From a bacterium (GTDB lineage Bacteria; Chloroflexota; Dormibacteria; UBA8260; Bog-877): a stretch of DNA of 33,028 nt. Shown here piece after piece: positions 2,759-31,180 of the stretch. The position numbers and the translations under genes are program-made. Below the pieces are notes generated by a model. That model was not told where the DNA came from and made no database searches. It saw nothing but the letters and a program-made list of their open reading frames with translations. The stretch lies in assembly GCA_021817025.1 (NCBI GenBank), contig JAKAWF010000006.1, forward strand, positions 1-33,028, in the 5' to 3' direction. The stretch's first letter is position 1, and each line of letters begins with the position of its first letter.

Positions 2759-2916
2759 TGTCTTCGGGGCAGGGTGAGAATCCCGACCGGCGGTGACAGC
2801 CCGCGAGCGGAGCCAGGCGTGCGCTTGGCCGAGCAGGATCCGGCGCAATTCCGGAGCCGACAGTCAGAAGAGACAGGCCCGGCGGTCTGCCCTTCGAGTC
2901 TGGATGGGAGAGGACA
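2759..2916 (+). promoter_or_regulatory. FMN riboswitch (RFN element)
   Basis: The conserved RFN blocks are all present in order: TCTTCGGGGCAGGGTGA, AATCCCGACCGGCGGT, AGCCCGCGAGC, GCAGGATCCGG, AATTCCGGAGCCGACAGT and GGATGGGAGAGGA. The P1 helix forms between 2759-2765 (TGTCTTC) and 2910-2916 (GAGGACA), with one G-T wobble. It senses FMN and represses the downstream riboflavin genes. The output is discussed under the hairpin just before ribD. Confidence 0.96.
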
Positions 2917-2917
2917 A

Positions 2918-2967
2918 GCCTGGATCGACGCGCTCCAGGCCCAGCTCCCTGCCCCTCTAGCAGGGAG
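2918..2967 (+). promoter_or_regulatory. riboswitch expression platform: hairpin plus SD-sequestering hairpin
   Basis: Directly after the aptamer are a 7-bp hairpin (2918-2924 with 2934-2940) and a perfect 8-bp hairpin, CTCCCTGC (2945-2952) with GCAGGGAG (2960-2967). The right arm of the second contains the ribD Shine-Dalgarno AGGGAG, 4 nt before the ATG. No U-run follows, so control is most likely translational. GGGAG in the aptamer 3' strand (2906-2910) could instead pair with CTCCC (2945-2949) and free the SD when FMN is absent; that alternative pairing is inference. Confidence 0.75.
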
Positions 2968-2971
2968 AGAG

Positions 2972-4081
2972 ATGGCTGGACCGGCGAGAGCGAACCCTGG
3001 GTTCGAGCCCATGCAGAGGGCTCTGGAGCTGGCCGCCCAAGCGGACTTCGCCACCGCGCCCAATCCGATGGTGGGTGCGGTGGTGGTGAGTGGTGGCGAG
3101 GTTGTCGGTGAGGGCTTCCACCAGCGAGCGGGCGAACCCCACGCCGAGGTGCTCGCTCTCGCTCAGGCGGGTGAGCGGGCGCGAGGCGCTGAGCTCTGGG
3201 TGACCTTGGAGCCATGCTGCACCACGGGCCGGACCGGGCCGTGCACGAGCCGGGTGATCGCAGCGGGAGTGGCCCGGGTCCACGTCGCCATGGTTGACCC
3301 CAATCCCGCCGTCGCTGGGGCTGGACTGGGGGAGCTTCGGAAGGCCGGAATTGAAGTGGTCGTCGGGGAGCGCCGCGAGGAGGCGGCGCGGCTGATCGAG
3401 TTCTACTCGGAGTGGGTGCGCACCGGGCTACCCTTCGTAACCCTCAAACTGGCCATCAGCCTGGACGGCAAGGTCGCGACCGCGCAGGGCGAGTCGCGAT
3501 GGATCACCGGGGCGGAGGCGCGCGCCGACGGGCACCGGTTGCGCCACGCTCACGATGCGATCCTGGTGGGGGTTGGGACGGCTCTCGCCGACGATCCGGA
3601 GCTGAGCGCTCGGGCCGGCTTCGAAGGCGGGCGGCAGCCGCTGCGGGTGGTGGTCGACAGCAACTTGCGGCTGCCACCCTCGGCCCGCCTCCTGTACTCG
3701 GCGGGCGCACCGGTCCTGATCGCCACCGTGGCGGGAGCGGACCCGGAACTCCGCCGCGGGCTGGAGGCGGTGGGGGCCGAGGTGCTGGAGCTTCCCGCGT
3801 CCGGGGGTGTGGTGCCGCTCAGGGAGCTGCTGGTGCGCCTGGCCGGACGTGGGGTGATCAGCCTGCTGGTGGAGGGAGGGCCAACGCTGTTGGGGGCGAT
3901 GCGGGCGGAGGGCTTGGGCAACCGGGTGGTGGCCTACGTGGCTCCGATCGTGCTGGGCGGGGTCAGCGCCCCCGGGCCCTTCGGCGGCGCCGGCGCGGTC
4001 CAGCTGGCGGCTGGCTGGAGGCTGCACTGGACGGAAACGGCAAGGGTGGGGCCCGACTTGCGTCTCACCGCGGAGGTTTGA
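2972..4081 (+). CDS. ribD: bifunctional diaminohydroxyphosphoribosylaminopyrimidine deaminase / 5-amino-6-(5-phosphoribosylamino)uracil reductase RibD
   Basis: Carries out the second and third steps of riboflavin synthesis from GTP: deamination of the pyrimidine, then NADPH-dependent ribose reduction. The N-terminal cytidine-deaminase-type domain has the zinc ligands in HAEV (His57, Glu59) and the Cys82/Cys91 pair (PCCTTGRTGPC). The C-terminal reductase domain begins near residue 150 (FVTLKLAISLDGKVAT, then SRWITG) and has the family motif LLVEGGPTLLGA. The length (369 aa) is normal. ATG 2972 is chosen because it follows the sequestered SD AGGGAG. The reading frame is open further upstream, but that part lies inside the riboswitch. 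First gene of ribD-ribE-ribBA-ribH; ribE starts 1 nt after its stop. Confidence 0.95.
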   Translation: MAGPARANPGFEPMQRALELAAQADFATAPNPMVGAVVVSGGEVVGEGFHQRAGEPHAEVLALAQAGERARGAELWVTLEPCCTTGRTGPCTSRVIAAGVARVHVAMVDPNPAVAGAGLGELRKAGIEVVVGERREEAARLIEFYSEWVRTGLPFVTLKLAISLDGKVATAQGESRWITGAEARADGHRLRHAHDAILVGVGTALADDPELSARAGFEGGRQPLRVVVDSNLRLPPSARLLYSAGAPVLIATVAGADPELRRGLEAVGAEVLELPASGGVVPLRELLVRLAGRGVISLLVEGGPTLLGAMRAEGLGNRVVAYVAPIVLGGVSAPGPFGGAGAVQLAAGWRLHWTETARVGPDLRLTAEV

Positions 4082-27730: not shown

Positions 27731-28490
27731 CGTGGTCACCCTCTTCCCCCAGATTTTCCCCGGGCCGCTCGCAATCGGCGTGGTGGGTCGGGCGCTGGAG
27801 GCCGGCTCAATTCAGATCGAGACCCACGACCTCCGCCAGTGGGGGCTCGGGGCGCACCGCCAGGTCGACGACATCCCGTTCGGGGGAGGGCCCGGCATGG
27901 TGCTGCGGCCCGAGCCGCTGTTCGCGGCGGTGCGGGCGGTGGAAGGGATCCCGGGGCTGGAGCCACCGCACACGATCCTGCTCTCGGCCCACGGACGCCG
28001 GCTGGCCCAGGGGGTGATTGAGGAACTCAGCAGCCTTCCCAGGCTCCTGCTGGTCTGCGGCCGCTATGAGGGCGTTGACGAGCGGGTCCGTCTGGGCCTG
28101 GGTCTGGACGAGATCTCGGTGGGCGACTTCGTGGTCAGCGGAGGTGAGCTGCCGGCGATGGTGCTGATGGAGGCTGTCGCCAGGCGCCTGCCCGGCACTC
28201 TGGGAGATCCCGCCTCGGCCGTGGACGAGAGCTTCGCCGAGGGCCTGCCGGAGTATCCCCATTACACTCGACCCGCCGTCTTCGAGGGCTTGCAGGTGCC
28301 GGCGGTGCTGCGCAGCGGCGATCATGCGAAGATCGCCGCCTGGCGCAGCGAGGCAGCCCTGGAGCGCGCCCGGCGGTTGCGGCCTGACCTCTTGACAGGG
28401 GATGGCCCGGGCGAGGGGGTGATATCAGTCGATCTTGAGCGAGAACCGGGAGCGGCCAGGGCCGGAGCCGGGACGGGAGGAATGCCATGA
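27720..28490 (+). CDS. trmD: tRNA (guanine(37)-N1)-methyltransferase TrmD
   Basis: Methylates G37 next to the anticodon, preventing frameshifts. A SPOUT-fold enzyme with deep-knot motifs: [45 protein letters not shown] and [24 protein letters not shown]. The C-terminal helical domain includes [12 protein letters not shown] and [10 protein letters not shown]. At 256 aa it carries a short Gly/Ala-rich end. The stop overlaps the rplS start (ATGA). Confidence 0.97.
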
Positions 28491-28942
28491 ACGTCATCGA
28501 TCTCCTTGAGGAGGAGCAACTCAGGGACGACGTCCCGGAACTTCGCCCCGGGGACACGGTCAAAGTCCACGCCAAGGTGGTGGAGGGCACCCGCGAACGC
28601 ATCCAGGTGTTCGAGGGAGTGGTGATCGGGCTCCACAGCGGCGGCGTCCGCCGCTCGGTCACCGTGCGCCGCACCGCGCATGGGGTTGGGGTCGAGCGCA
28701 CCTTTCTCGTGCACTCGCCGCGGCTGGCCATGATTGAGGTGGTCCGCCACGGTAAGGTGCGCCGGGCCAAGCTCTACTACCTGCGCGGCAGGGTCGGCAA
28801 GCGGGCCAAGATCAGGGAGCGGCGCGAGGTCACCGTCAAGGCGCCAGTCCCAGCTCAGGTCGCCCAGGTGGTGGAGGCCCCGGTGGAGGTGGCGACCGTC
28901 CCCAAGAAGCGATCCCTGCGACCGCACCGGAAGGCGGAGTGA
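28487..28942 (+). CDS. rplS: 50S ribosomal protein L19
   Basis: L19 lies at the 30S-50S interface. It shows [50 protein letters not shown] and the closing [21 protein letters not shown]. The core ends near residue 115. A further ~35 residues (Val/Pro/Ala then a basic [10 protein letters not shown] end) extend it to 151 aa. Start ATG 28487 in the trmD overlap. Last gene of the ribosomal/SRP run before the mobile element. Confidence 0.97.
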
Positions 28943-28975: not shown

Positions 28976-29000
28976 GCCATAAACTTGAGTCGTCAACCAC

Positions 29001-29020
29001 CCCGTCCTGACGGACGGGGC
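29001..29020 (+). repeat. left-end hairpin of the IscB element
   Basis: A perfect 8-bp stem CCCCGTCC/GGACGGGG with loop TGAC (29009-29012), followed by CTTGTG. A second hairpin, GCGGC-TCT-GCCGC, follows at 29029-29041. Confidence 0.8.
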
Positions 29021-29380
29021 TTGTGAGGCGGCTCTGCCGCTGACCAGGCTCCATCCAGCAGGGAAACGGTTGACCAGACCAAGGCATCAAGAAGGGAGTT
29101 GACCAAGGTGTCTACGTTGCACGTTAGCGAGAAATTCCACCGAGCCGCGCTTCCTCAACGGCTTGCTCCGGAACTCGCGCCAGCAGACAACCCCAGGGGT
29201 GGGGATGAAACCGGGCGCGAGCGCGGGGGCATCGTCCCCGCAACTGGCGTGCAACTTCGTCAAGGGGAGATCGGGGTCGGGCTCAACCACCCGCCCCGGC
29301 GTCACTCTGCGGAGCCGGGCCAGTCCGGCGAAGCCGAGGCTCGGGGCCCTGCGGTCCCACCCACCACGGCGGCCAGGGGG
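29001..29380 (+). ncRNA. candidate omega-RNA of the IscB element
   Basis: The 380 nt between the left end and the iscB start hold no conserved protein but many short hairpins. These include AGCCG/CGGCT (29143-29163), GCGGGG/CCCCGC (29223-29241), CGGGG/CCCCG (29272-29298), GCCGG/CCGGC (29314-29329) and CCGA/TCGG (29334-29344). In known IscB systems the guide RNA scaffold is encoded exactly here, with the guide taken from the DNA just outside the left end. A frame in phase with iscB is open through it from 29099 but is not protein-like. Assignment rests on position and structure, without a covariance search. Confidence 0.55.
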
Positions 29381-29383
29381 TTC

Positions 29384-29962
29384 GTGCTCGACCGGCACGG
29401 CCGCCCGCTCATGCCCTGCCATCCGGCCCGGGCGCGCAGACTGTTGGCCATCGGTCGGGCGGCGGTGGCCCATCCCACGCCGTTCGTCATCCGGCGCAAG
29501 GACCGGACCGCGGCAAGTTCCGAGGTCGCAGGCGTCGAGGTCGGCATCGACCCAGGCGGCAGGGCCACCGGCATCTCGGTGTTCCAGACCACGCTCCCCG
29601 GACGGGTGGGGCTGGTCTCGATCGAGGTCCAACATCGGGGACAAGCTATCCAAGAGAAGATCGTCCAGTGGGCGCCGGTCGTCGCCATTCACCAGGAGCT
29701 GGGCAGCTTCGACCTGCAGAAGATGCAGAACCCGGAGATCTCCGGCGTCGAGCACCAGCACGGCACGCTCGCCGGGTTCGAGACCCGCGAGTACCTGCTC
29801 GCCAAGTTCGACCGGACCTGTGGAAGTTTCAACGTCCGCACCAAGGATGGTTGTGCCCAGGGGATCTCTCACAGGTACTGCACCATCCTCCAGCGAGCCG
29901 ACGGCTGGGGATGGTCGCAGCAAAGCGAAGGAGTGGCGAATGCGGTCCAACAGCCAGCCTAA
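29384..29962 (+). CDS. miniature IscB-like protein lacking bridge helix, HNH and RuvC-III
   Basis: A 192-aa relative of the RNA-guided nuclease IscB (usually ~400-500 aa). Residues 1-30 form the PLMP domain (VLDRHGRPLMPCHPARARRL). RuvC-I is VGIDPGGRATG with Asp56, and HRGQAI follows. At about residue 93 the sequence jumps (EKI to VQWAPV) past the Arg-rich bridge helix. RuvC-II is HQELGSFDLQKMQNPEISGV with Glu105, then REYLLAKFDRTC. At Cys146 it jumps again to GSFNVRTKDGCAQGISHRYC and LQRADGWGW, the C-terminal end of IscB. HNH and RuvC-III (with its catalytic residue) are absent, so it should be nuclease-dead. Both junctions keep the frame. GTG 29384 has CAGGGGG upstream; a TTG at 29099 is in frame but lies in the RNA region. 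It differs from IsrB, which lacks only HNH. Confidence 0.85.
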   Translation: MLDRHGRPLMPCHPARARRLLAIGRAAVAHPTPFVIRRKDRTAASSEVAGVEVGIDPGGRATGISVFQTTLPGRVGLVSIEVQHRGQAIQEKIVQWAPVVAIHQELGSFDLQKMQNPEISGVEHQHGTLAGFETREYLLAKFDRTCGSFNVRTKDGCAQGISHRYCTILQRADGWGWSQQSEGVANAVQQPA

Positions 29963-29986
29963 CCGCAGCAGCCGGGCGCTCCCCCT

Positions 29987-30006
29987 CCCCGCCCTTGCGG
30001 ACGGGG
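29987..30006 (+). repeat. right-end hairpin of the IscB element
   Basis: CCCCGCCC/GGACGGGG, an 8-bp stem with one C-A mismatch and loop TTGC (29995-29998), followed by CTTCTG. It matches the left-end hairpin and ends 22 nt before the next gene. Confidence 0.8.
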
Positions 30007-30028
30007 CTTCTGTCGCTGGGGCACTCGG

Positions 30029-31180
30029 GTGATCGAACCATCCACGCCTAAGATCGACCGGGTACTGGTGGTTTCGCGTCCTGCCGCCCGCTCCGAGGCG
30101 ATGCAGCGGGCGCTGGACAAGCGGGGCCTGGCCGTGGCGCCCTTCGAGTCCAGCGCGGCTGCCGCCGCCGCTCTCGACGGGACCCCGGTGGAGGCCGTCC
30201 TGATCGACGTGGTCGGCGAGGATGCCGACCTGGTGCCCCTGATTCGCCAGATCCGTAGCAGCATCCTCCACGCCGCCATTCCGGTGGTGCTGGCGGTCGC
30301 GGATCCCGATTCCCCACTGGTTGCGGCGGCGCTGGATGCCGGCGCCAGCGAACGGGTGCTAAGGAGCAGCCCGGCGCAGGCGCTGGCCGACATCCTGCAA
30401 TCCCGGATCCAGGCTGCGGCCTCCCCACTGCGGCCGAGCAAGGGCGGCGGCGAGCTCTGGGTCGTCTGCGGGCCCCGTGGGGGGGTGGGCCGGACCATGA
30501 TCGCGTCCAACCTGGCGGTTCTGGCGGCGGACAGCTCCCGGGTCGCGCTGGTGGACAACGTGCCTCGCTTCGGCAGCGCGCTGGTCGCCTTCAACCTCCC
30601 CCCCCAGACCCCCACCTGGGTTGAGCTCACCACGGTTGGTCCTGACGAGGAGATATTCGACCGCTTGCCGCGGCACCCCAGTGGTGTTTCCGTGCTGCCG
30701 GCGCCTTCCCGGCCCGAGCTCGCGGATTCCGTCGCCCCGGCGGCCGTGGGGGCCATGATCATGCGCCTCACCCATGCGGCGGAGCTGGTGGTCGTTGACC
30801 AGGGGGGCCGCCTCGACAACGGCGGGATCGACATGCTGGAGAGCTCCGATCACATGGTGGTGGTGGGGACTCCCGACAACCCGGGCGTCTACGCGCTGCT
30901 GGCCTGGCTGCGGATCTGCGACCAATTGAGGATTCCCCGCAAGCGCATCTCAGTCCTCCTCAACTGTGTGCTTCCCTACCACCAAGTTGACGCCGACCGG
31001 GCGGCCAAGGTATTGGAGCAGCCGGTGCTCACGGTGCCCCACGCCGGCCTGGACGGGGTGAGGTCCCTCAGCGGTGGCGAGCCGCTGGCGTGGCGCCATC
31101 CCGGCCACCGCTGGGTGAAGTCGCTGCGAGGGACCTTCGAGCAGATCTCGCCGCTCGCGGCAGCCAAGCTCAAGCACTGA
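30029..31180 (+). CDS. CpaE/TadZ-like ATPase with atypical receiver domain
   Basis: A 383-aa protein. Residues 1-125 resemble a response-regulator receiver (RVLVVSRPAARSE ... AVLIDVVGEDAD ... GASERVL), but the acidic pair after strand 1 is missing. Residues 135-380 are a MinD/ParA-type domain with WVVCGPRGGVGRTMIASNLAVLAA. The deviant Walker A KGGxGKT appears as RGGVGRT, both Lys replaced by Arg. The strand ELVVVDQGG is the Walker B equivalent, and LLNCVLPYHQVD follows. CpaE/TadZ proteins localise type IV (Tad) pilus assembly; no tad genes are visible here, so its partner is unknown. GTG 30029 has only a weak SD (GGGG) and lies 22 nt from the IscB right-end hairpin. Confidence 0.8.
   Translation: MIEPSTPKIDRVLVVSRPAARSEAMQRALDKRGLAVAPFESSAAAAAALDGTPVEAVLIDVVGEDADLVPLIRQIRSSILHAAIPVVLAVADPDSPLVAAALDAGASERVLRSSPAQALADILQSRIQAAASPLRPSKGGGELWVVCGPRGGVGRTMIASNLAVLAADSSRVALVDNVPRFGSALVAFNLPPQTPTWVELTTVGPDEEIFDRLPRHPSGVSVLPAPSRPELADSVAPAAVGAMIMRLTHAAELVVVDQGGRLDNGGIDMLESSDHMVVVGTPDNPGVYALLAWLRICDQLRIPRKRISVLLNCVLPYHQVDADRAAKVLEQPVLTVPHAGLDGVRSLSGGEPLAWRHPGHRWVKSLRGTFEQISPLAAAKLKH

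Follow-up and report, generated by a model that had tools for sequence, protein, structure and literature searches.

In solved IscB complexes, Arg residues of the bridge helix anchor the seed of the guide, the REC linker and the RuvC/WED portion accommodate the heteroduplex, and the WED and TI domains bind the TAM duplex, as described in a structural report in which deletion of the REC linker also abolished IscB editing in human cells (PMC9640706). The PLMP domain contacts the terminal hairpins of the omega-RNA in both IsrB and IscB (PMC9581776, PMC9640706); these contacts are characterized as mainly sequence-independent (PMC9640706), and nicking by IsrB was abolished by removal of either the PLMP domain or the last strands of TI (PMC9581776). 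Here, we describe an open reading frame (ORF) in which the PLMP domain of an IscB and its final TI strands are both kept, whereas two internal blocks between them are missing. It lies in a window of 33,028 nucleotides, the whole stretch of DNA analyzed, from a Candidatus Dormibacterota contig. With a probability of roughly 0.86, we regard it as belonging to a HEARO/IscB element in the chromosome of a Candidatus Dormibacterota bacterium, a non-autonomous copy with internal deletions and a recent remnant.

An IscB reading frame with two in-frame internal deletions

The ORF and the blocks that it retains are as follows.

29384..29962, forward strand: internally deleted IscB ORF of 192 aa, an open frame recognized by Pfam and NCBIfam matches and by a profile of its relatives
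29384..29668, forward strand: retained block 1, holding the PLMP domain and the D56-bearing RuvC-I strands, placed by alignment; ten-residue blocks from residues 1 to 90 have pLDDT values of 60–85
29669..29821, forward strand: retained block 2, RuvC-II segment with E105, extending to the first HNH cysteine; residues 89–135 have pLDDT values below 50
29822..29959, forward strand: retained block 3, an incomplete TI barrel with four of the six strands that P0081 has in its model, placed by alignments and models

Translation of the ORF runs from a GTG at 29384 to a stop at 29962 with no internal stop, and its G+C content by codon position (0.69, 0.49, 0.84) resembles that of the coding neighbors. 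Joined to the open frame upstream of it, the ORF matches Pfam RRXRR at 1.4e-31 and the NCBIfam IscB model at 150 bits, below the equivalog cut-off of 175 bits. The 192 residues find matches in eight solved IscBs, of which TbaIscB, the top one, aligns in two pieces, and a profile of full-length relatives (120 sequences, those listed among 7999 scored) aligns them as three pieces with breaks at model positions 188 to 235 and 290 to 489. These breaks, together with 40-row alignments, bear out the description in the earlier note of an IscB that has lost two internal segments without losing its frame. Junction 1, which that note had put near 29660 and equated with loss of the bridge helix, falls at 29668/29669, where Q95 is followed by W96; the P0081 counterparts are residues 186 and 237, and the 50 intervening residues (187–236), comprising the Arg-rich bridge helix and the linker, are absent. 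Junction 2, expected near 29820, falls at 29821/29822 between C146 and G147 (P0081 287 and 507). The HNH domain and RuvC-III have gone, as the note proposed, and with them the counterparts of P0081 H409 and D412, the RuvC-III residues matched to OgeuIscB; the deletion is nevertheless larger than envisaged, removing 219 residues (P0081 288–506) that also include the WED region and two of the six TI strands. Loss of WED is judged from position, between RuvC-III and TI, where the solved IscBs hold that domain. Junction placement is uncertain by a few residues, chiefly at junction 1.

The PLMP domain, the RuvC-I Asp (D56, 29549-29551) and the RuvC-II Glu (E105, 29696-29698) are all kept, in agreement with the earlier note, but the C-terminal segment that it also listed as conserved proves to be only part of a domain. 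Identity to P0081 is 67/91 in block 1, 42/50 in block 2 and 30/42 in block 3. Judged by its protein, the ORF displays one of five IscB features, a PLMP domain with the RuvC-I Asp, and fails the other four: the bridge helix, the HNH domain with the RuvC-III His/Asp, a complete TI barrel and an equivalog score are missing. It does not fit IsrB either, in which HNH is absent but the bridge helix, a complete RuvC and TI are kept (PMC9581776).

Structure prediction for the 192 residues with AlphaFold2 and 40 sequences gave a mean pLDDT of 58.3 and a pTM of 0.35; the control, P0081 modeled with the same 40 sequences, gave 68.5 and 0.62. Mainly residues 1–88 fold. Residues 174–192, like the stretch listed above for block 2, have pLDDT values below 50, and the sole folded piece of the TI remnant is a hairpin at 149–161 around a block of pLDDT 79; in the P0081 model the C-terminal barrel has six strands, the first two of which are deleted in the window. 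The blocks that hold the RuvC-II strand at 240–246 of P0081 have values of 92 and 79; those of its equivalent in the 192-aa protein have 35 and 28. The sequence following this strand (P0081 251–270) is low in both models and was discounted from the contrast. A fold search with the low-confidence 192-aa model returned IscB or IsrB chains in its first nine rows, at TM scores of 0.24–0.27. In terms of these models, the product, if made, is most likely a PLMP-RuvC-I fragment with a largely disordered remainder.

The omega-RNA, the element ends and their setting

Around the ORF lie the further parts of the element and its two neighbors.

28487-28942: rplS, the upstream neighbor of the element
28992..29272, forward strand: omega-RNA (HEARO, RF02033), whole-model match of 77.6 bits, E 3.4e-14, against a curated cut-off of 83
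28997..29025, forward strand: left-end hairpin of the element, 83% identical to 29984-30012 over 29 nt; folds as a hairpin
29108..29383, forward strand: open frame that runs on into the ORF, a putative N-terminal extension that overlaps the omega-RNA; translation uncertain
29984..30012, forward strand: right-end repeat matching the left-end hairpin (repeat family D1, inverted pair I1)
30029-31180: CpaE-like gene, so labeled in this analysis, weakly matching response-regulator and ParA-type models at scores below the Pfam cut-offs

By its RNA and its ends, this element of about 1.0 kb, set between rplS and the CpaE-like gene, belongs to the HEARO/IscB elements. Omega-RNA scores of five relatives are 104.9, 103.5, 95.0, 90.8 and 53.9 bits, the lowest being that of L056, which is also under the curated 83 yet adjoins a long open IscB frame. 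A reading of 77.6 bits as decay of the omega-RNA was rejected, as this score lies inside the relatives' range of 53.9–104.9. Similar left and right element ends were seen by eye at L037, L059 and L001. In the window, a 50-nt fold around the right-end repeat favored other pairs, and read-through at this repeat resembles the C-terminus of P0121, a close IscB relative from a Candidatus Dormibacteria genome. A third copy of the repeat, 69% identical and located within the ORF at 29589-29617, is probably due to chance.

The frame is likewise open upstream through the omega-RNA in P0010, P0011, P0081, L056, L059 and L001, an actinobacterial/Dormibacterial group of IscBs in which it reads as a conserved extension of the form MSTLxxSEKTHQxxLPQ, and the GTG at 29108 fits the start of these relatives' extensions. 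In the P0081 model the extension (residues 1–79) has pLDDT values below 50. Conservation of the upstream frame may denote a translated extension or may merely reflect conservation of the omega-RNA. The presence of RQGE for GRGE in the extension was considered as a sign of decay and rejected; P0081 has the same change. As a separate observation on this protein family, L056, L059 and P0059 carry a CxxC...CxxC insert between the bridge helix and RuvC-II, perhaps like the REC-like zinc finger reported for CzcbIscB (PMC13180657).

Genes for S16, RimM and TrmD lie further upstream. The best named relatives of TrmD belong to Candidatus Dormibacterota, at 79% and 75%; compared with 296 and 198 genomes, two largely overlapping sets from the class to which L001 and L056 belong, TrmD reached no more than 58%. 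On this contig, the neighbors look like housekeeping genes and no partner gene is evident beside the ORF; a scan for promoters and terminators found none, and PADLOC detected no system. Elsewhere in the window, a tRNA-Leu (gag) gene occupies 2533-2618 on the minus strand, and an FMN riboswitch at 2756-2919 (80.2 bits; gathering score 66.2) heads an apparent riboflavin gene set from ORF 2774-4081 onward, the genes being named by inspection.

Distribution of the architecture and deletions in relatives

The earlier note made its proposal depend on homologs with the same two junctions, and none was found among the protein, genome and viral relatives or among the plasmid and phage matches listed. 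A search of 5.8 billion proteins for lengths of about 105–336 aa sharing five-residue words with the ORF product reduced 176 candidates to 34 hits, one of which is the window itself; no same-junction protein is present among the other 33. The nucleotide searches supplied 128 loci, namely the best 80 of 185 genome-contig relatives and 48 viral-contig loci. No same-junction locus occurs among the 105 of these for which junction 1 could be assessed, where at least 40 extra residues are present in 97, 10–39 in 3 and fewer than 10 in 5; 21 loci could not be judged and 2 gave no hit. Junction 2 was measurable in 47 of the 128, where the gap is 150 residues or more in 44 and fewer than 10 in 3, and 79 loci had no C-terminal piece. 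Six loci with odd values (L043, L105, L108, L059, L031 and L103) proved on reading to have misplaced gaps or mispaired pieces. As for plasmids and phages, none of the matches listed (10 of 55 records and 3 of 3, respectively) has the window architecture by match span: each of these 13 spans at least 135 nt beyond a match lacking the junction-1 insert. The double deletion is a singleton within the searches run. Among the papers listed from one open-licence library, no title or opening portion of an abstract describes an IscB that is nuclease-dead or internally deleted in nature, although titles and abstract openings are not proof of absence.

Other deletions are present among the relatives. Whereas 28 of the 33 protein hits match the profile as one piece, the remaining 5 match it as two pieces with in-frame deletions, which remove about 142 model positions in P0003, 48 in P0009, 129 in P0015, 312 in P0020 and 301 in P0031. 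Among the loci, L047, from a Streptomyces lacrimifluminis isolate, has a true large deletion that differs from those of the window: it keeps the bridge helix and continues from there with sequence that precedes the TI domain. L020 and L039 show shorter losses. At the L047 breakpoint NRTRP stands next to DRCGF, and RTRP(D) is present at both places in the proteins of relatives, which might point to a repeat-mediated deletion but is not conclusive as to mechanism. In-frame internal deletion of IscB thus recurs, with unrelated breakpoints. The earlier note calculated that two chance deletions would both keep the frame in about one case in nine; the figure is right for chance, but a reading of ORFs, like the protein databases, shows only the frame-keeping survivors, and the argument therefore carries little weight. 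A note of caution follows for the field, as in-frame IscB deletions are frequent enough (5/33 hits) to bar a claim of a new architecture from one sequence.

Readings of the deleted frame and comparison with known systems

Tests for constraint on the retained residues are ambiguous. The window departs from the consensus at 2/21 retained columns conserved at 99%, 3/54 at 95%, 4/66 at 90% and 5/81 at 80%, and 2, 11, 18 and 50 of the 120 full-length relatives, respectively, are as bad. Changes unique to the window outnumber those unique to P0081 by 19–25 to 12–16 over seven outgroups (one-sided binomial 0.02–0.26, below 0.05 with one of the seven), for example 23:14 with P0061 as outgroup; the corresponding counts are 16–21 to 14–20 against P0121, including 18:18, and 23–27 to 7–14 against P0050. 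The window forms a tree clade with P0137, P0121 and P0081, for which there is no support value. Its terminal branch of 0.225 is the sixth longest of 46 (median 0.110), and its root-to-tip distance in the midpoint-rooted tree is 0.24 against a median of 0.53. These values suggest at most a mild excess in rate, which would fit a gene that had still been functional not long ago and is not itself evidence of decay. As the earlier note observed, no stop or frameshift has accumulated in the 192 codons. Some 3.5% of random substitutions in the ORF would create a stop, and the probability of remaining stop-free without selection is 0.66, 0.36 and 0.13 at 0.02, 0.05 and 0.1 substitutions per site, or 0.31, 0.05 and 0.003 if a rate of indels is assumed as well. 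A frame can therefore stay stop-free without selection at low divergence, and a recent loss of function would explain why this one is open.

Of the two readings put forward in the earlier note, the recent remnant has the better support. A full-length IscB of the P0081/P0121 type would have suffered two internal deletions, its frame kept by chance; the leftover protein would be unlikely to form a guide-bound, TAM-reading complex, and the gene would drift. With the omega-RNA and both ends still recognizable, the copy could move or could serve an intact IscB in trans. Against the remnant one may cite the two in-frame deletions, the lack of a stop, the conserved sites that are mostly kept, a relative-rate excess that is small or absent except against P0050, the root-to-tip distance below the median, the G+C content by codon position and the retention of PLMP and the final TI strands, all of which also fit a recent deletion. 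As the bridge helix, the linker, RuvC-III and the WED region were lost together, binding of a guided target by the 192-aa protein appears unlikely by analogy with the solved complexes; contact of its PLMP part with the omega-RNA is possible on the same analogy.

That last possibility underlies a reading in which the PLMP-RuvC-I fragment binds only the omega-RNA and thereby inhibits the cell's intact IscBs or serves them as an RNA-holder. Residues 1–88 are the best-folded part of the model and PLMP contacts the omega-RNA in the solved complexes, but the architecture was not found elsewhere in the protein, genome and viral searches and the contacts to the terminal hairpins are described as mainly sequence-independent, making this reading a very improbable one. 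It would be as surprising if selection in Dormibacterota maintained a minimal PLMP-RuvC-I protein of the IscB family that holds the omega-RNA, cuts nothing, and acts either by repressing a guided site or by keeping intact IscBs in check. We attach equally little credence to an assembly artefact, in which segments from different IscB copies would have been joined in the contig. Only one contig is known to carry the protein and IscB elements can be multi-copy, but all three blocks show about the same closeness to P0081 and both junctions keep the frame. The multiplicity is illustrated by the Nitrospirae MAG FK3.bin81, a single bin with several IscB copies that supplied six of the best 80 genome loci (L003, L006, L015, L016, L026 and L029).

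The least probable reading, which overlaps that of a selected RNA-holding protein, is the TldR-like binder raised in the earlier note, a domesticated nuclease-dead mini-IscB that binds the omega-RNA and, leaving the DNA uncut, represses a guided target: the frame is open, PLMP and most conserved sites are kept and a recognizable omega-RNA adjoins the ORF, but the parts that hold the guide and TAM are deleted or, in the case of TI, broken, residues 89–135 are unfolded in the prediction, the protein is a singleton in the searches run, the element ends are still present, rplS and the CpaE-like gene look like housekeeping neighbors on this contig, and a large deletion with the RuvC-I Asp and RuvC-II Glu intact would be unlike the RuvC mutations reported for TldRs. 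As a remnant, the element is ordinary. Were the protein to function, the Cas9 lineage would have in it a remarkably small guide-RNA-associated member, and it would be a test of how little protein an omega-RNA needs.

Set beside the closest known systems, the element shares with the full-length IscBs P0081, P0121 and P0050 PLMP, the RuvC-I Asp, the RuvC-II Glu, the end of TI, an upstream omega-RNA and similar ends, and differs from them in being without the bridge helix, linker, HNH domain, RuvC-III, WED region and first TI strands. Other deleted IscB ORFs (P0003, P0009, P0015, P0020, P0031 and L047) resemble it in having in-frame losses, each with its own breakpoints. IsrB, the OMEGA nickase, is likewise without HNH, but it keeps a phosphate-lock loop and WED in addition to the bridge helix, RuvC and TI (PMC9581776), parts that are missing or broken in the window. 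The engineered TID-less R-IscB has had TI removed, a domain that is broken in the window; unlike the window, it has the bridge helix, RuvC, HNH and P1D in place, and its binding of single-stranded targets persists (PMC12991159). With TldR the window shares the idea of a nuclease-dead transposon protein beside a guide RNA. TldRs descend from the TnpB lineage, retain guide RNA and DNA binding and have associated non-transposon genes (PMC13418256); their RuvC mutations, on our comparison, contrast with the large deletion in the window, in which the RuvC-I Asp and RuvC-II Glu are intact.
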